DNA from: Spiribacter curvatus
GTDB lineage: Bacteria; Pseudomonadota; Gammaproteobacteria; Nitrococcales; Nitrococcaceae
Direction of reading: 5' to 3'
Assembly: GCF_000485905.1 (NCBI RefSeq)
Contig: NC_022664.1
Span: forward strand, 1,178,001 to 1,242,000
Length of the DNA: 64,000 nucleotides
The notes below the pieces were generated by a model. That model was not told where the DNA came from and did no database searches. It saw only the letters and a list, made by a program, of their open reading frames with translations. The translations under genes and the position numbers were made by a program. This document shows, piece after piece, positions 4,596 through 44,016 of this stretch (positions are counted from its first letter, which is position 1; every line of letters begins with the position of its first letter).

Positions 4596-6140
<1,545 letters not shown>

Positions 6141-37694: not shown

Positions 37695-37797
37695 GGGTAT
37701 GGTCATAGCGCGTTGAATGAAGCAAGCGCTCCAATAACATGGCAGATAATCGCTCGCTGGGTATAATCGCGTTTTGCGTATCCTGGGAGTATCCACC

Positions 37798-39087
37798 ATG
37801 CTGGAGCGTTTCTTCGACTTGGCCGAGAACGGCACGGATGTCCGTCGCGAGCTGCTTGCCGGCCTGACGACCTTTCTCACCATGGCCTACATTGTTGTGG
37901 TCAACCCGAGCATCCTCTCGGAAACCGGTATGAACTGGGGCGCCGTGTTTGTCGCCACCTGTCTGGCCGCGGCACTCGGCAGCCTGATCATGGGCCTCTA
38001 CGCGAACTATCCCTTCGGCCTGGCCCCGGGCATGGGTCTCAACGCCTATTTCACCTACGGCGTCGTTCTGGGGATGGGCATCGCCTGGCAGGCCGCCCTC
38101 GGTGCGGTTTTCCTGTCGGGCATCCTGTTCTTGATCATCTCTGTGCTACCTATCCGCGAGTGGCTGATCAACGCTATCCCGATGTCACTCAAAATGGCGA
38201 TTTCAGCCGGTATCGGTTTCTTTCTGGCGATTATCGCGCTGCAGAACGCCGCCATCGTTGTCAATAGCGATGCCACGCTGGTGACGCTGGGTGACCTGAC
38301 CGCGATTCCGACGCTGCTGGCCATGCTCGGCTTCGTGATCATGGTGGCATTGAGCTACCGCGAGATCCCGGGCGCGGTACTGATCGGTATTCTTGTCGTG
38401 AGTCTGATCGGCGTGCCACTGGGCGTCGCGGAATTCGATGGTGTGATATCGATGCCGCCGGATCCGAGCCCCACCTTCCTGCAGATGGATATCGCTGGCG
38501 CGCTGGAGCTGGGCCTGGTGTCAGTCGTGCTGGTGTTCCTGTTCGTCGACCTTTTTGACAGCACAGGCACACTCATCGGCCTGTCCCACCGGGCCGGTCT
38601 GCTCGATCGCGATGGTCGGCTTGGGCGACTGCGAAGCGCCCTGGTCGCCGATTCAGGGGCGAGCATCGGTGGCGCAGTGTTCGGCACCTCCACAACAACG
38701 ACTTATATCGAGAGCGCATCCGGCATCAACGCGGGGGGCCGCACCGGTCTGACCGCTGTTGTCATCGCCGTTCTGTTCCTGCTGTCACTCTTCTTCCTGC
38801 CCGTCGTCAGCGCTATCCCCGGTTACGCGACCGCGCCAGCGCTGCTTTTTGTCGCTTGCATGATGGTTCGCGGCCTCGCCGAGTTGGACTGGGATGACAT
38901 CACGGATACGGCACCTGCCGTTGTTACCGCCATTGCAATGCCGCTGACCTATTCCATCGCTGATGGCATGGGCCTTGGATTCATCACTTACGTGTTTGGC
39001 AAGACGCTGGCCGGCAGACCCATGCAGGTCCATCCGGCGGTATGGCTGATTGCCACCCTGTTCGTGCTGCGGTTTGTGTTCATCTAA
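37798..39087 (+). CDS. NCS2-family purine permease (AzgA-like)
   Basis: A 429-residue transporter of the AzgA/PbuG branch (adenine, guanine or hypoxanthine). The ATG at 37798 (MLERFFDLAENGTDVRRE) has GGGAG upstream; a TATAAT lies at 37762-37767. Family hallmarks are AGLTTFLTMAYIVVVNPSIL, NYPFGLAPGMGLNAYFTY, DLFDSTGTLIGLS, and ASIGGAVFGTSTTTTYIESASGINAGGRTGLTAVV. About twelve to fourteen membrane segments are expected. It probably imports purine bases for salvage. It converges with the DsrE gene. Confidence 0.95.
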   Translation: MLERFFDLAENGTDVRRELLAGLTTFLTMAYIVVVNPSILSETGMNWGAVFVATCLAAALGSLIMGLYANYPFGLAPGMGLNAYFTYGVVLGMGIAWQAALGAVFLSGILFLIISVLPIREWLINAIPMSLKMAISAGIGFFLAIIALQNAAIVVNSDATLVTLGDLTAIPTLLAMLGFVIMVALSYREIPGAVLIGILVVSLIGVPLGVAEFDGVISMPPDPSPTFLQMDIAGALELGLVSVVLVFLFVDLFDSTGTLIGLSHRAGLLDRDGRLGRLRSALVADSGASIGGAVFGTSTTTTYIESASGINAGGRTGLTAVVIAVLFLLSLFFLPVVSAIPGYATAPALLFVACMMVRGLAELDWDDITDTAPAVVTAIAMPLTYSIADGMGLGFITYVFGKTLAGRPMQVHPAVWLIATLFVLRFVFI

Positions 39088-39145
39088 AGCCGTCAGGGGG
39101 GCGCATGGCCGAGGGACCCCCGGACCATGGCAGACGGTGCTGTCT

Positions 39146-39484
39146 TTATAGGGTAATGACCTGATCGGGCATATTGCCAGCCAGTGCACCGTAGAGGTCG
39201 GGGAAACAGCCAATGGGTACGCCGGTCATCAAACGATCGGCGATCTCCCGCTCATAGCAGCACTGATCACAGCCCATCAGAAGGATATTCTGCTCCTCGG
39301 CCACTTTGCGCAGACGCTCGCCAATGACATCGCCATCGACCAGCACGTAATTGTTGTCCTCGAAAAAGAACATACCGACCACCTCAACGCCATGACGCTT
39401 TTCCTCAAGCTGCGGCAGTATCATGCGCGCCAGCACGTAGGAAATGTTGTGCCGCTGGGTGGCGAATATATAGGCAACTTTCAT
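39146..39484 (-). CDS. DsrE-family protein, SaoD-like
   Basis: A 112-residue DsrE-fold protein (MKVAYIFATQRHNISYVLARMIL; GMFFFEDNNYVL; ERLRKVAEEQNILLMGCDQCCYERE). Cysteines C72, C75 and C76 form a CxxCC cluster, with C93 in IGCFPDLYGAL; DsrE-fold proteins often carry persulfide or other thiol-bound groups. It resembles the family I know as SaoD, reported with ABC transporters in a proposed selenocysteine-assisted organometal system; that match is from memory and needs a profile search. It is the last gene of a five-gene coupled operon and starts inside the stop codon of the preceding gene (ATGA). Confidence 0.75.
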   Translation of the reverse strand: MKVAYIFATQRHNISYVLARMILPQLEEKRHGVEVVGMFFFEDNNYVLVDGDVIGERLRKVAEEQNILLMGCDQCCYEREIADRLMTGVPIGCFPDLYGALAGNMPDQVITL

Positions 39485-39891
39485 TCAACCTCCTGTTTCT
39501 CGGATGAAATGGTTGTTATCAGGGCGCGGTAGGCCCCAAGCGCGATCGCTGCCCGATCCTGCATCGTTGCGGGAACGCCCCGCACGCACGCGACGAGTTC
39601 GTCGAGAGCCGGCACCGCGGACATACCGGCAACTTCACCCTCCAGCAGGTCAACAACCCCCTGGCAATACGCCACCAGTGTGACGCAGGTGCTGCATTCA
39701 AACCGCAGTGCCTGCATACGGTGGCGACGAACGTCGGCACTGAAACTCGCCTCCAGTCCGCTGGCGGCACGTATCGCCCGGCCTCGCAGGGGCATGGCGG
39801 GGCGCCGCCGCGTTTCCATGCCGCGTTCAAGGCAGTCATGGAACCGCAGGTCACGCGTCGGCGGCCCGACAGGATCACGCGTGGTGATCAC
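39481..39891 (-). CDS. small cysteine-rich protein of unknown function
   Basis: A protein of about 136 residues that I do not recognise. The chosen GTG at 39891 overlaps the permease stop (GTGA), copying the coupling seen elsewhere in the operon; a GTG at 39903 would add four residues. Cysteines are at 20, 66, 69, 76 and 102, including CxxC-x6-C (ECSTCVTLVAYC) in a helical region, which suits metal, persulfide or organometal binding. No signal peptide or membrane segment is evident, so it is cytoplasmic. By position it may hand the imported ligand to the DsrE-like protein; this is inference. Confidence 0.65.
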   Translation of the reverse strand: MITTRDPVGPPTRDLRFHDCLERGMETRRRPAMPLRGRAIRAASGLEASFSADVRRHRMQALRFECSTCVTLVAYCQGVVDLLEGEVAGMSAVPALDELVACVRGVPATMQDRAAIALGAYRALITTISSEKQEVE

Positions 39892-40649
39892 CGGTATTTC
39901 CACCGGAGCAGGTGCCGCTCGAGCATCCCGGCCAGCGTGAACAGGATCATCACGAACACCAGGACGAGGAAGATCAGGCCGAAGGTCAGGGACGCGTTAT
40001 AGGTACTCTGCGCAAAAGCCAGAAGGTAACCAAGGCCTCGGCTCGAGGCCACAAACTCGCCGACAATGGCACCGGTGAAGGCAAAGCCAACCGCGACCTT
40101 GAGATTGCCCATTACCCAGGCAACCACGGAGGGTACGTAGACCTCGCGCAGGAGTACCCATTGACCGCCACCGAGCGTCTTGACCCGCTCGACGAGGCGC
40201 TGATCGACATCGCGAATACCGTTATAAACCGAGAAGAAAGTCAGAACGACCACAAGGATGAACGAAAGCGCCACCTTTGAGGCGAGCCCTATGCCGAGCC
40301 AGATGATGAACAGCGGCGCCAGGATCACCCGCGGGATGGCGTTGAGCATGGCCATCACCGGTTCGAGCAGCTCGGCAACCGGCCGCAACAGCGCCGCAAT
40401 GAACCCGAGCACCGCCCCGCCGACCAGTCCCAGCCCCAGTCCCAGCAGGGCGGCGCTGAAAGTCGCTTCGAGGTGCTTATAGATCTCGCCGTCCGCAAAC
40501 AGATCGCCGACCGCACTGGCAATAGCGGTCGGTGGCGGTCCATAGAAGGGATCGAGCCACCCCATCCAGACCACGAATTCCCACAGGGCAGCAATCAGCG
40601 CGAGTGCAGCCGTCCTTCTTATATAGAGGCCATATTTCTGCCAGATCAC
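39888..40649 (-). CDS. NitT/TauT-type ABC transporter permease
   Basis: A 253-residue BPD-type inner-membrane permease with about six segments, like SsuC/TauC. Signatures are FVVWMGWLDPFYGPPPTAIASAVGDL near the N-terminus, AMLNAIPRVILAPLFIIWLGIG, the EAA loop (ERVKTLGGGQWVLLREVYVPSVVAWVMGNLKVAVGFAFTGAIVGEFVAS) and RGLGYLLAFA. Its start overlaps the stop of the ATPase gene (ATGA). It works with the downstream-encoded ATPase partner and the Tat-exported receptor. The substrate is unknown, since the neighbours do not look like taurine, nitrate or thiamine genes. Confidence 0.92.
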   Translation of the reverse strand: MIWQKYGLYIRRTAALALIAALWEFVVWMGWLDPFYGPPPTAIASAVGDLFADGEIYKHLEATFSAALLGLGLGLVGGAVLGFIAALLRPVAELLEPVMAMLNAIPRVILAPLFIIWLGIGLASKVALSFILVVVLTFFSVYNGIRDVDQRLVERVKTLGGGQWVLLREVYVPSVVAWVMGNLKVAVGFAFTGAIVGEFVASSRGLGYLLAFAQSTYNASLTFGLIFLVLVFVMILFTLAGMLERHLLRWKYR

Positions 40650-41425
40650 TGATTCACTACCTTCAACTCAGGCTCTGTTCGAACCCCGGGCGTACGGACT
40701 TGCGTTGACAGATCGTTCCAGAGCCGCGTGGCAATACTGGCAAACTCGCGATTTTCCTTGACCTTCAATAAGTCTCTCGGTCGTGGCAGATTGACCTCGT
40801 AGCGTCCCTTGATCTGAGCGCGCGGGCCGCTGCCAAGCAGGATCACCCGATCCGATAGCGCGACCGCTTCTTCCAGATCATGGGTGACGAGCAGAACGGT
40901 GAGCTGGTCACGTTCCACCCACCGTAGGAGATCATCGGTCAGGTAATGACGGACAATCGCGTCCAGCGATGCGAATGGCTCGTCCATCAATAGAAAACGC
41001 GGTCGAAGTGCGAGCACCTGAGCAATCGCGACACGCTTACGCTGGCCACCTGATAACTCTCGCGGATAACGGTCCTCTAAGCCCTTCAACCCAACCGATG
41101 CCAGCCACTCGTTCGCCTGTTCAGTGGCGCTGGCTTTCGACGCACCGTGGTTTCGCAGGCCGAGCGCAACATTCTGTCGGGCCGTGCGCCAGGGCAGCAG
41201 CGCATCGTCCTGAAACAGAAAGCCGACTTCGCCCCGGTCAACGGCAAGCTCGACGCGACCTGCAGAGGGTGTCTGCAGGCCCATGACCGCTCTCAGCAGC
41301 GTGCTCTTACCGCATCCGGAGGCACCGATCAGACTGACGAACTCACCGGCGCTCACCGACAGGTCAACGCCCTCGACCACCGGCTCGGCCCCATAACTGA
41401 TTTGGACATCGGAGAGTTCCAGCAT
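40646..41425 (-). CDS. NitT/TauT-type ABC transporter ATP-binding protein
   Basis: A 259-residue ABC ATPase. Walker A GASGCGKST, Q-loop FLFQDDALLPWRTARQNV, signature LSGGQRKRVAIAQVL, Walker B FLLMDEPFASLD, and switch LLVTHDLEEAV place it in the SsuB/TauB/NrtD group. The C-terminal portion (ALSDRVILLGSGPRAQIKGRYEV) is standard. It follows the receptor gene by three bases and overlaps the permease start by four. No paralogous system of this type is in the window. Confidence 0.93.
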   Translation of the reverse strand: MLELSDVQISYGAEPVVEGVDLSVSAGEFVSLIGASGCGKSTLLRAVMGLQTPSAGRVELAVDRGEVGFLFQDDALLPWRTARQNVALGLRNHGASKASATEQANEWLASVGLKGLEDRYPRELSGGQRKRVAIAQVLALRPRFLLMDEPFASLDAIVRHYLTDDLLRWVERDQLTVLLVTHDLEEAVALSDRVILLGSGPRAQIKGRYEVNLPRPRDLLKVKENREFASIATRLWNDLSTQVRTPGVRTEPELKVVNQ

Positions 41426-41428
41426 GGA

Positions 41429-42496
41429 TCAGCCGACCACTTCCGGCGCGACGATACGGTCAAGATCAACATTGCCGCCGCGCCCGCCAGCAGCGCGGTT
41501 AACGTCGATCACACGCTGCATGGCGTCCAGATTCATATCAACCGCGGTCGGATAGAGCGACTCACGATAGCGCTCGAGCGTGTTGGCAAGCCGATCGCGG
41601 TCGCCACCCGTAATGATCTCGGAGGGCAGCGACTCCACAAGCCGCTCCGGGGTCGTCGACTGGACAAACCGAAGCCCCTTGCCGAGCGCTCGGGCAAGGG
41701 CCTGCATCTCGTCATTGCGCTCCTCGAGCTCGCCTCGGCGCGTCGCAACACCCATGAACTCGTAGGCACCACCGAGGTACTCGTTCGCATCGTCGATATC
41801 CATGCCGTTGACCAGCACGCGCGAGCCTCGCTCCTGGAGCAGCGTCAGGGCGGGCTCCTGAACCATGCCGGCATCCAGCTGACCCAAGCGGATGGCGTCA
41901 TAGAGGTTGGTACCCACGGTCGCGAACTCCACCGAGTCCGGATCGACGCCGGCACGCTCGAGCAGGTAGAGCATGAAGGCATGGTCGGCATTGCCAAGTG
42001 CAGAGACACCAATCGTGCGCCCCTCGAGCGCCTCGACGCCCTTGATCTCGTCCGCGAGATCGGGACTCGTTGCCAGTGCGAACAGGGGGAGACGGCCGGT
42101 GGATGCGAAGCGAACGATATCGGCGCCGTTTGAAAACGCATTCAGGGCCGCGTCAAAGGACGTCGCCGCATAATCGACCGCACCGCCGTTGAGCGCCTGC
42201 AGGGCAGCACTTCCGCCGCGCGTATAGACCAGTTCCACGTCCAGCCCCTCTTCGGCAAAGAACCCGGCCGCACGTGTTGCCTCATACGGCACCACGCAGA
42301 GAAGCTGACTGCAGAAGGCGAGTCGAACGCGCTTTTGCTGGCCCCAGACCGGACTGACCAATCCGCCGATCGCTGTCAGGCCGGCGGCACCGGCCGCGCC
42401 GCGAAGGAAATCCCGCCTCGAAACGCCCCGGCTGACGTGCAGGACATCGACTTCCTCGCGCCCAAGCGGGCCAAGATCATTGCAGCAATCGGACAT
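41429..42496 (-). CDS. Tat-exported NitT/TauT-like ABC substrate-binding protein with paired cysteines
   Basis: A 355-residue receptor of the SsuA/THI5 (NMT1) fold. A Tat signal is clear: SRRDFLRG at residues 26-33 then a hydrophobic stretch, cleavage probably near VWGQ. Unusually the pre-signal stretch begins MSDCCNDLG, and the first strand of the mature domain carries C62 and C67 (AFCSQLLCVVPYEA), where relatives normally have no cysteines; this is the ligand-cleft edge in the fold. The segments FFAEEGLDVELVYTRGGSAALQAL and MVQEPALTLL are otherwise typical. Tat export suggests it folds, perhaps with a bound cofactor or metal, before export. GGAGG precedes the ATG. First gene of the operon. 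Confidence 0.88.
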   Translation of the reverse strand: MSDCCNDLGPLGREEVDVLHVSRGVSRRDFLRGAAGAAGLTAIGGLVSPVWGQQKRVRLAFCSQLLCVVPYEATRAAGFFAEEGLDVELVYTRGGSAALQALNGGAVDYAATSFDAALNAFSNGADIVRFASTGRLPLFALATSPDLADEIKGVEALEGRTIGVSALGNADHAFMLYLLERAGVDPDSVEFATVGTNLYDAIRLGQLDAGMVQEPALTLLQERGSRVLVNGMDIDDANEYLGGAYEFMGVATRRGELEERNDEMQALARALGKGLRFVQSTTPERLVESLPSEIITGGDRDRLANTLERYRESLYPTAVDMNLDAMQRVIDVNRAAGGRGGNVDLDRIVAPEVVG

Positions 42497-42727
42497 CGTT
42501 CCTCCAAGGGATCTGTATAGGCCTCATAGGGTACTGAGTACGTTGATGCAGGCAAAGAATAAAACGTTATACCTATATAATATCCAGAAATGCCGCCGAC
42601 CAACGCTTGAGGATCAGAGCCATTGACGGGTGAATCCTCCAGGTGAGCGAATGAAGGGGCTGGATCATTTGGAATTCACTAGACGAAGCGGACACCCGTA
42701 TCCATGTTTCATCAACAAGGAGCTACC

Positions 42728-42808
42728 ATGAAGCGCCTGGCACTCATCGCGACGACACTCGTACTGCTGACCGGCTGCAGTGGGGTGCCGTTAGTCCCCG
42801 GTATATAG
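42728..42808 (+). CDS. 26-residue lipoprotein
   Basis: A very short gene with AAGGAG seven bases before ATG. The product MKRLALIATTLVLLTGCSG followed by VPLVPGI has a complete lipoprotein signal with the lipobox LTGC (Cys at residue 17), so the mature lipopeptide would have about ten residues. Similar tiny lipoproteins ending in PGI occur in other gammaproteobacteria as far as I recall, but their function is unknown. The stop is followed by a short stem (CTGGCTC/GAGCCAG) without a U-tract. Confidence 0.7.
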   Translation: MKRLALIATTLVLLTGCSGVPLVPGI

Positions 42809-42958
42809 CTGGCTCCCTACCCCGAGCCAGCGCATTGAGCGGGGCCTGCAAAGCTGGGGGCCACCCTACGACTGCGGCGCCATCACCCTCGTGCGCTGGC
42901 CCGCGTCGTGCGACTGACAGGTTGGAGCGTGCCCACTTGATAACGGCTACGGAGTCCC

Positions 42959-43486
42959 GTGGACGAAGGCTATAGCACGTTAGCCGGTCAGTTTTTTGGT
43001 CTGGCGTCACTGATCCTCTGCGTCCTGGCATTTTCCAACAAGCAGGACGATCGGCTCTTGCTGCTGCTGATCTCAGCGAACGTGGCCTTCGTCCTACAGT
43101 TCTTGTTTTTTGAGAGCTGGACGGCGGCGGCGTTGTCACTGCTGGTCATTGTGCGCATTGCACTTGCGAGGCGCTTTCCGCGCAGTCTGAAAGCAATGAC
43201 GATGGTTCTGGCAGCAAGCGCCGTCGCTTCGGTGCTCACCTGGCAGAGCTGGGCAGACTTGCCCGCCATGGTCGCGATGGTGCTGGGTACGGTGGGTATG
43301 TTTCTGCTCAGGGGAATCCCGATGCGGGTCTTTCTGGGAATGGCAGCTTTAGCGTGGACGGTCAGTCATGTCCTGGCTGGCTCGGTGGGAGGGACACTGG
43401 CCGAAGTGCTTGTATTCTCGACTAACGCGATCACGATTTATCGCCTCTATCAGGCGACACAGCGCCACCCGGAGGTCACTGATTAG
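42959..43486 (+). CDS. YgjV-family inner membrane protein
   Basis: A 175-residue protein with about six short membrane helices, matching the YgjV (bacterial inner membrane protein) family: GQFFGLASLILCVLAFSNKQDDRL, ALSLLVIVRIALA, GTVGMFLLRGIPMRVFLGMAALAWTVSHVLAGSVGGTLAEVL. Start GTG at 42959 follows GGAG closely. The function is unknown. It ends just before the tRNA-Ser repeat region on the opposite strand. Confidence 0.8.
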   Translation: MDEGYSTLAGQFFGLASLILCVLAFSNKQDDRLLLLLISANVAFVLQFLFFESWTAAALSLLVIVRIALARRFPRSLKAMTMVLAASAVASVLTWQSWADLPAMVAMVLGTVGMFLLRGIPMRVFLGMAALAWTVSHVLAGSVGGTLAEVLVFSTNAITIYRLYQATQRHPEVTD

Positions 43487-43498
43487 CGCCGGCCCGAA

Positions 43499-43533
43499 GC
43501 CCCTGTTCTGTGTCTGGCGGAGAGGGAGGGATT
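43499..43533 (-). repeat. extra copy of a tRNA-Ser 3' end with its flank
   Basis: The 35 bases at 43499-43533 match 43674-43708 exactly (offset 175). They comprise the 3' acceptor and T-stem strand of tRNA-Ser with CCA (43515 onward) and the start of its terminator. The 5' part of a tRNA is absent, so this is not a gene. Copies of the related unit also sit at 32481-32515. Confidence 0.85.
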
Positions 43534-43567
43534 GATTCGGCCCTCCGGGCCTCACCCTTCGGGCGCA

Positions 43568-43708
43568 TCGCTGCGCGACGCGTCCCAATCGCCAGCCGGC
43601 GATTGGTCGAACCCCATCTATCTGGCTCCGGGGGTTCGAACCCCGTCAGTCAGACACAAAAAAGGGGCCTACGGCCCCTGTTCTGTGTCTGGCGGAGAGG
43701 GAGGGATT
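43568..43708 (-). repeat. tRNA-3'-end-derived repeat beside tRNA-Ser, copy B
   Basis: This is homologous to copy A at 32373-32515. In minus-strand order it has the tRNA-Ser 3' end, a terminator hairpin, a T-arm-like GGGGTTCGAACCCC palindrome (about 43630-43643), and the hairpin CCAATCGCC/GGCGATTGG (43584-43605). The stem is one base pair longer than in copy A and still perfectly paired. Confidence 0.75.
43657..43681 (-). terminator. terminator downstream of tRNA-Ser (CGA)
   Basis: On the minus strand AGGGGC-CGTA-GGCCCCT pairs and is followed by T6-7 (plus-strand A-run at 43658-43663). It begins nine bases after the encoded CCA of the tRNA. Confidence 0.85.
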
Positions 43709-43779
43709 CGAACCCCCGGAGCCCTCTCGGACTCACCGCATTTCGAGTGCGGCGCTTTCGACCACTCAGCCACCTCTCC
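43690..43779 (-). tRNA. tRNA-Ser (CGA)
   Basis: A 90-base type II tRNA on the minus strand: acceptor GGAGAGG/CCTCTCC with G and encoded CCA, D-arm GGCTGAGTGGTCGAAAGC, anticodon arm CCGCA-CTCGAAA-TGCGG giving CGA, a long variable arm (TGAGTCCGAGAGGGCTC), and a normal T-arm GGGGGTTCGAATCCCTC. This is the canonical comparison for the odd tRNA-Ser at 32497. Confidence 0.95.
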
Positions 43780-43821
43780 AACATTGCGGATTGTACAACA
43801 TCTGTTGCTTTGGGCGAAAAC

Positions 43822-44016
43822 ATGGCCAATGCCGCATTAGCGGCCATAGCCAGCACCAAGTACATGCTCGTCGGTGCGGGTGGCATCGGTCTGAAGCTGC
43901 AGGGTTCACTCAACACCCTTGCCTGGGGACAGGTGAGCGTCATCCTGGTCCTTATCCTGGTCACGGTTATCGTAAGCGAATGGGTCTCCGCGAAAATGCG
44001 CCACGCGGTGATCTGA
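43822..44016 (+). pseudogene. remnant of a phosphonate ABC permease (PhnE C-terminus)
   Basis: About 64 codons encode a fragment whose LVGAGGIGLKLQGSLNTLAW and LVTVIVSEWVSAKMRHAVI match the end of PhnE-type permeases, including the last membrane helix and the SAKxR tail. The EAA loop and all N-terminal helices are missing, there is no ribosome-binding site, and no phnC or phnD is nearby. It sits 42 bases beyond the 5' end of tRNA-Ser(CGA), suggesting a deletion or exchange next to the tRNA. Confidence 0.65.

Follow-up and report, generated by a model that had tools for sequence, protein, structure and literature searches.

A five-gene ABC importer operon of Spiribacter curvatus points to an uncharacterised uptake route for a sulfur-loving metal or sulfur compound

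The window analysed here is a 64,000-nucleotide stretch of Spiribacter curvatus DNA (NC_022664.1, positions 1,178,001 to 1,242,000), and the subject of this report is an operon at window positions 39146 to 42496. Its five genes, all on the minus strand, encode a substrate-binding receptor, an ATPase and a permease of an ATP-binding cassette (ABC) transporter, followed by a small cysteine protein and a DsrE-like protein (Table 1). Three bases separate the receptor and ATPase genes; the ATPase and permease genes overlap by four bases, as do the small gene and the DsrE-like gene, and the permease and small genes share a four-base GTGA overlap if the latter begins at the GTG at 39891. This confirms the coordinates, gap and overlaps on which an initial annotation had described five coupled genes on one strand. 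The start at 39891 yields the cysteine pattern C66xxC69-x6-C76, and the longest one C70/C73/C80. The nearest relative (L003) has a Met at the codon matching 39891, and residues are numbered from that start below.

Table 1. Genes and features of the operon, with positions in the window
Feature	Position	Strand	Remarks
Tat-exported NitT/TauT-type substrate-binding protein, 355 aa, C4-C5 and C62-S-Q-L-L-C67	41429..42496	-	
ABC transporter ATP-binding protein, 259 aa	40646..41425	-	PF00005, 112.9 bits
ABC transporter permease, 253 aa	39888..40649	-	PF00528, 75.7 bits
Small cysteine protein, degenerate IscU/NifU_N-fold protein	39481..39891	-	longest possible start 39903
SaoD/DsrE family protein, 112 aa, C72-x2-C75-C76 and C93	39146..39484	-	NF040913, 175 bits
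Receptor N-terminal region, Cys4-Cys5 to twin arginines R27-R28	42413..42487	-	

The receptor is of the NitT/TauT type and carries a twin-arginine translocation (Tat) signal (TIGR01409, 24.3 against a cut-off of 16.7), as had been proposed. C4, C5, C62 and C67, the cysteines singled out at that stage, are the only ones it has. Its AlphaFold 2 (AF2) model has a mean pLDDT of 82.9, with residues 1-51 below 50, and Foldseek places it nearest to 3qsl and then to receptors of the ThiY/TauA/SsuA type. TIGR01728, which describes SsuA sulfonate receptors, is the top-scoring named receptor family, at 74.4 bits and below its cut-off of 163.5. The protein thus resembles the SsuA, TauA, ThiY and 3qsl receptors in fold and overall family but differs from them by its N-terminal Cys-Cys, by C62 and C67, and by an Asn-Ala-Asp in place of a Ser-Ser-Thr.

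These differences mark a clade comprising the receptors of 21 distinct genomes, including one on a Thermus brockianus plasmid that is 55 percent identical over residues 54-355. All 21 have a Cys-Cys near the start, then Arg-Arg, and both C62 and C67, which bears out the expectation that the receptor cysteines are conserved. Anywhere from 2 to 23 residues separate the Cys-Cys from the Arg-Arg, so the Cys-Cys does not belong to the Tat motif proper. For comparison we used 28 other receptors (the 27 next-best of the phylum receptor search and one Thermus plasmid receptor). All 28 have Gly at position 62 and none has Cys there; position 67 is Tyr in 13, Cys in 12, Ile in two and Val in one. At positions 169-171 the clade has Asn (18/21)-Ala-Asp and the others have Ser-Ser-Thr (28/28), and H172 is present in 20 of the 21 clade members versus two of the 28. 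An upstream Cys-Cys in four of the 28 precedes the likely start Met, as judged by eye. By homology to SsuA-type receptors, the loops bearing C62/C67 and residues 169-172 would face the ligand. Twelve of the 28 (L105-L115 and L122), mostly of bacterial family f90, have Cys-Leu-Cys-Tyr-Leu-Pro at the same loop; from their sequences these are a putative further group of cysteine-bearing NitT/TauT receptors.

What is the small cysteine protein? At E up to 1, neither Pfam nor NCBIfam has a model that matches the window copy. However, a profile built from its family (33 rows of the 42 found, duplicates and mis-started open reading frames [ORFs] being excluded) recovers a NifU/IscU chain from the PDB with E 7.6e-15. 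PF01592 is matched by 31 of the 33 members at E up to 1 (best 5.3e-10; window copy unmatched) and the NifU model TIGR03419 by 29. Scanned singly, seven of eight relatives score 26.2-38.5 against the Pfam NifU_N cut-off of 22, the eighth (L003) being unmatched like the window protein. The AF2 model has a mean pLDDT of 90.6, and Foldseek ranks 1-41 are all IscU or SufU entries, with a best TM-score of 0.70 (4eb5_C). The small protein accordingly has the fold of IscU/NifU_N, which the initial annotation had missed.

IscU-type scaffolds have three cluster cysteines plus an Asp and a His. The small protein is like IscU, SufU and the N-terminal domain of NifU in its fold and in the cysteine at the IscU Cys63 position (C69), which is kept in 33 of 33 members. 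It differs in that its consensus has lost the first cluster cysteine and the His-Cys pair near the end, with neither Cys nor His at the positions of Cys38, His106 and Cys107 of the archaeal chain; one of IscU's three cluster cysteines is thus retained. A cysteine stands at the IscU Ser70 position in 28 of the 33. The C66xxC69-x6-C76 pattern remarked on earlier is indeed present, but its CxxC is not conserved, since C66 occurs in 12 of the 33, and only the middle cysteine is invariant. An N-terminal Cys-Cys, considered as a hallmark of the small protein, was rejected as not defining because it occurs in 16 of the 33 and is absent from the window copy. Since a normal NifU_N gene (81.7 bits) is present in the host as well, the small protein is an extra copy. 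A second NifU_N-like gene in the host (L091:1309-1755, plus strand; C1 about 610886-611098) scores 24.3 bits against the cut-off of 22; it has just two cysteines, both before the matched stretch, and lies, by eye, between cysteine desulfurase-like and IscA/ErpA-type genes. No plasmid copy of the L021 version of the small protein was found, and viral contigs gave 23 pattern matches, none of them confirmed.

The DsrE-like protein belongs to a family already known, in that NCBIfam has named it. It passes the NF040913 'SaoD/DsrE family' model (175 bits against a cut-off of 152) but not the SaoD equivalog NF040732 (145.9 bits against 169), so that the resemblance to SaoD claimed for it holds for the family and not for SaoD proper. 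Its cysteines are C72, C75, C76 and C93, the first three forming the C72xxC75C76 motif that had been reported; C72, C75 and C93 are invariant among the 27 aligned family members. Homology to DsrE, TusD, YchN and DsrE3 (PF02635) is weak: 16 of the 27 members match PF02635 at E up to 1 (best 9e-5), the window protein does not, and the alignment of the CxxC region to its YchN counterpart has E 0.42. The DsrE-like protein differs from the PF02635 proteins in having its own NCBIfam family and the further invariant C93, and, unlike PF02635 systems, the five-gene operon has no DsrF/H or TusA gene. Members of the SaoD/DsrE family turned up in haloarchaea and several bacterial phyla, and the literature searched contained no described function for it. 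The nearest worked DsrE chemistry that we saw is that of DsrE3A and TusA, which carry thiosulfate (PMC4175335).

Are the five genes associated elsewhere? Genome searches, which scored only the best few candidates per genome, found the DsrE-like gene with NF040913 in seven of 95 relatives (window genome included) and the receptor in six, all among those seven. The seventh has a long-type DsrE, and transporter genes are absent from its 3.4-kb locus. Among 398 Pseudomonadota genomes the DsrE family is present in two (G000 and G178). The receptor profile gives two matches of about 1e-179, in the same two genomes, and its next match is at 7.6e-43; the small-protein profile, at E up to 1e-20, finds nothing outside these two. 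The window comes from one of these genomes, which leaves G178 as the independent case.

A survey of DsrE in named genomes (alignment A1) kept the best 80 of at least 508 confirmed relatives; in some cases the contig ends nearby, and certain loci (e.g. L077 and L083) are near-copies. Among these best 80 loci the small gene is present in 34, a permease scoring above 300 bits in 17 and the receptor in 16 on the contig, and all 17 permease-bearing loci also have the small gene. The permease, small gene and DsrE also occur together in the relatives' loci L003, L004 and L007, and the five-gene unit is present in Alpha-, Beta- and Gammaproteobacteria. The association is more than chance. Co-occurrence of the small protein and DsrE with the transporter in other genomes, which the initial annotation had anticipated, is therefore real in 17 of the best 80 loci, though DsrE is often found without the transporter. 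The small gene and DsrE occur without the permease in a further 17 (Acidobacteriota, Chloroflexota, Zixiibacteriota and others), a pairing that had been overlooked, and DsrE occurs with neither in 46. At the Thiohalophilus thiocyanatoxydans locus (L032) DsrE is accompanied by neither the small gene nor the transporter. Across 17 loci (window included) the five proteins diverge in a correlated way in all ten gene pairs (r 0.40-0.96), with none of 2000 permutations as high, although common descent alone also gives such correlation. In L077 and L083, which are near-identical Acidobacteriaceae loci, an ABC transporter distinct from this one, with two permeases and an ATPase, lies about 2-4.3 kb downstream of DsrE, after the small-DsrE pair.

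A tree of 90 DsrE rows separates short and long types with support 100/99; it is built on 112 columns only, its bootstrap is unsettled, some branches are long and it is midpoint-rooted. The DsrE that accompanies the transporter is of the short type in Proteobacteria and of the long type on the Thermus brockianus plasmid, where it groups with a stand-alone Thermus thermophilus copy, apart from the proteobacterial operon copies. The receptor clade has therefore been coupled to two DsrE lineages. In T. thermophilus HB5018 (L100 around 5001-5397) the DsrE match is split in two and no gene is annotated there, as if the gene were broken.

The initial annotation had also proposed kinship to the selenocysteine-assisted organometal (SAO) system, reportedly described by Haft and Gwadz in 2023. 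The likeness consists in an ABC transporter of the same broad family and a SaoD/DsrE family protein. Membership was rejected on SaoD, SaoX, SaoP, SaoA, SaoB and SelA: the receptor scores 20.1 with SaoX (cut-off 300), the permease 96 with SaoP (295) and the ATPase 173.7 with SaoA (360). SaoB has no match in the host genome at E up to 0.1 (three of 14 controls matched, none above the cut-off), and neither has SelA (TIGR00474; 12 of 14 controls matched, one above the cut-off). A search for SaoL, a MerB-like lyase, matched nothing in the host and nothing in any control. As the host yielded no match to SelA or SaoB, we do not file the operon as an SAO system, and the proposed kinship does not extend beyond the SaoD/DsrE family; the accompanying claim that the operon is selenium-free appears correct, there being no SelA match in the host. 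The SAO system is not known to have a counterpart of the IscU-like gene. An alkylmercury lyase was likewise sought and rejected, the one PF03243 match (genome 873652-873849) being sub-threshold at 14.8 bits against 27, with the controls silent. The SAO system is summarised in PMC13188914.

Among importers that have a thiol partner on the inside, the nearest worked example is YeeE/YeeD (TsuA/TsuB), the thiosulfate uptake system in which conserved cysteines line the import path and a cytoplasmic partner of sulfurtransferase type is required (PMC11073785). The operon, with cysteines on both sides, recalls this arrangement. The components differ: YeeE is a channel with a TusA-type partner, whereas the operon encodes an ABC importer with a receptor, a DsrE-type partner and an IscU-like protein, and any relay among these is putative.

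Records of DsrE in other contexts are few and not a sample. In three thermophile species its neighbours concern metals. On Thermus brockianus pTB1 the order is beta-propeller, ZnuA, hypothetical, DsrE and GTP-binding protein (ZnuA and CobW were assigned by Pfam on the SNM4-1 copies); in T. oshimai DsrE overlaps a gene annotated as a metal ABC receptor; and in Thermomicrobium the order is Fur, ZnuA, ATPase, permease, DsrE. We also scanned 90 of 120 listed ORFs neighbouring transporter-free DsrE genes, 30 having been dropped by hand, mostly as short or antisense-looking. No common partner emerged among the 90: the most frequent of the 108 families, 25 of which were listed, are response regulators (6/90), sigma-54 activators (5/90, at least partly near-copies from Bryobacterales), AhpC/TSA (4) and SPOR (4). 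DsrE has beta-propeller genes in its vicinity in an acidobacterium (YNCE above cut-off), two haloarchaea (by annotation or sub-threshold Pfam match) and Thermus brockianus (by annotation), at L022:6386-7438, L132:4894-5931, L101:3909-4877 and L135:2284-3828. The Thermus one adjoins ZnuA, recalling the zinc chaperone AztD.

The operon points to an uncharacterised uptake route for a sulfur-loving metal or sulfur compound. Our favoured reading, put forward tentatively, is a thiol-relay ABC importer whose ligand is thiophilic and most probably a soft metal, as the ion or in a small complex. The receptor would fold in the cytoplasm and be exported by Tat with its cysteines still reduced; C62 and C67, with D171 and H172, would capture the ligand in the cleft, where homology would place these side chains; and the ATPase and permease would bring it in. 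On the inner side the DsrE-like protein could accept the ligand through C72, C75 and C93, and in Proteobacteria the degenerate IscU-fold protein, with its one invariant cysteine, might help the hand-off by direct contact. A soft metal or metal complex is preferred to a sulfur compound, a close rival, because Ser-Ser-Thr is replaced by Asn-Ala-Asp beside two cysteines and because DsrE has metal neighbours in the three thermophile species.

Several observations weigh against this importer of a soft metal. NitT/TauT receptors usually bind small organics or oxyanions, and the other receptors also have an acidic residue at the E214 position (24 Asp and four Glu of 28). Reading 16 loci by eye showed no metal gene next to the operon, and a search for a riboswitch as a clue to the ligand gave only tRNAs above threshold, in window positions 38500-44000 and in nine relatives. 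The Thermus operon comprises receptor, ATPase, permease and DsrE and has no IscU-like gene. DsrE does not depend on the transporter, since 63 of the best 80 DsrE loci have no such permease; three T. thermophilus records show neither metal nor sulfur neighbours, and in both haloarchaeal plasmid records DsrE lies in a sulfur context, beside rhodaneses and YeeE/YedE and in one of them TusA as well.

The haloarchaeal records speak for an importer of sulfane sulfur or a thio-compound, in which the receptor would bind a reduced sulfur compound covalently or through thiols and the DsrE-like and IscU-like proteins would take the persulfide or thiosulfonate, much as YeeE works with YeeD. We consider this a serious possibility, if somewhat the less probable of the two. 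In its favour, thiosulfate is carried on cysteine by TusA and by a DsrE homologue that has been characterised (PMC4175335), and the proposed cysteine relay of YeeE/YeeD requires a cytoplasmic TusA-family partner (PMC11073785). A possibly comparable NitT/TauT transporter of Thiobacillus has DsrE/F-like and tusA-related genes with it and lies beside thiocyanate hydrolase genes (PMC5328954). On the other hand, the Ser-Ser-Thr loop that would be expected to hold an oxyanion is replaced by Asn-Ala-Asp, the IscU-like consensus has no C-terminal cluster cysteine and keeps the one at the Cys63 position, and the same reading of 16 loci by eye revealed no sulfur gene next to the operon.

Might the small protein and DsrE serve the receptor rather than its ligand? 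They would then load C62/C67 or the N-terminal Cys-Cys with a metal, cluster or sulfur in the cytoplasm, ahead of export. Tat exports folded proteins, the Cys-Cys precedes the twin arginines in all 21 clade receptors despite its variable distance from them, and the IscU fold is a cofactor scaffold fold. However, the Thermus receptor has all four cysteines in an operon without an IscU-like gene, the pair occurs without the transporter's permease in 17 of the best 80 loci, and most IscU cluster residues are lost; we judge such maturation unlikely. Less likely still is an ordinary importer of the sulfonate or pyrimidine type, in which two of the genes are passengers and the cysteines have no special role. 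The fold, the best solved relatives (3qsl and the SsuA, TauA and ThiY-type receptors) and the first place of TIGR01728, though below its cut-off, are what such an importer would have, but four invariant cysteines that are almost the sole ones in the receptor, the confinement of DsrE, receptor and small protein to the same two of 398 genomes, and the pairing of the transporter with two DsrE lineages all argue against it. A more elaborate form of the thiol-relay importer is a long shot: an unprocessed Tat signal would anchor the receptor in the membrane with its Cys-Cys at the cytoplasmic face, on the outside C62/C67 would bind a soft metal or sulfane sulfur, and the repurposed IscU scaffold and DsrE would receive the cargo inside. 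Such a trans-membrane relay, if true, would give the IscU fold a new task and establish a new class of import that has its own dedicated acceptor.

The SaoD/DsrE family gains two defined partners here, a receptor with a distinctive cysteine signature and a protein of IscU fold that Pfam and NCBIfam miss in the window. The receptor's ligand, once found, would make SaoD/DsrE function directly testable and would show the IscU fold in a role other than Fe-S assembly with the usual three cysteines. We found no description of the IscU-fold partner, the receptor cysteine signature or the five-gene unit in the open-licence literature, where PMC5328954 provides one related lead.

The outer neighbours of the operon include none common to the whole set of 16 loci read by eye; neighbouring genes were called by a longest-ORF rule, which errs in GC-rich DNA. 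Close relatives do have common flanks (L019, L020 and L021 with L030; L014 with L028; L012 with L013). Searches of 12 other genomes of the genus, some of them incomplete, did not find DsrE. A tRNA gene lies at window positions 43693-43779 on the minus strand (61.6 bits, Rfam). Adjoining the operon at 37774-39087, on the plus strand, is an ORF that looks by eye like a permease and is found also in a same-genus genome (G005, L003:95-1426); the operon locus beside this ORF is a single site with patchy presence within the genus.

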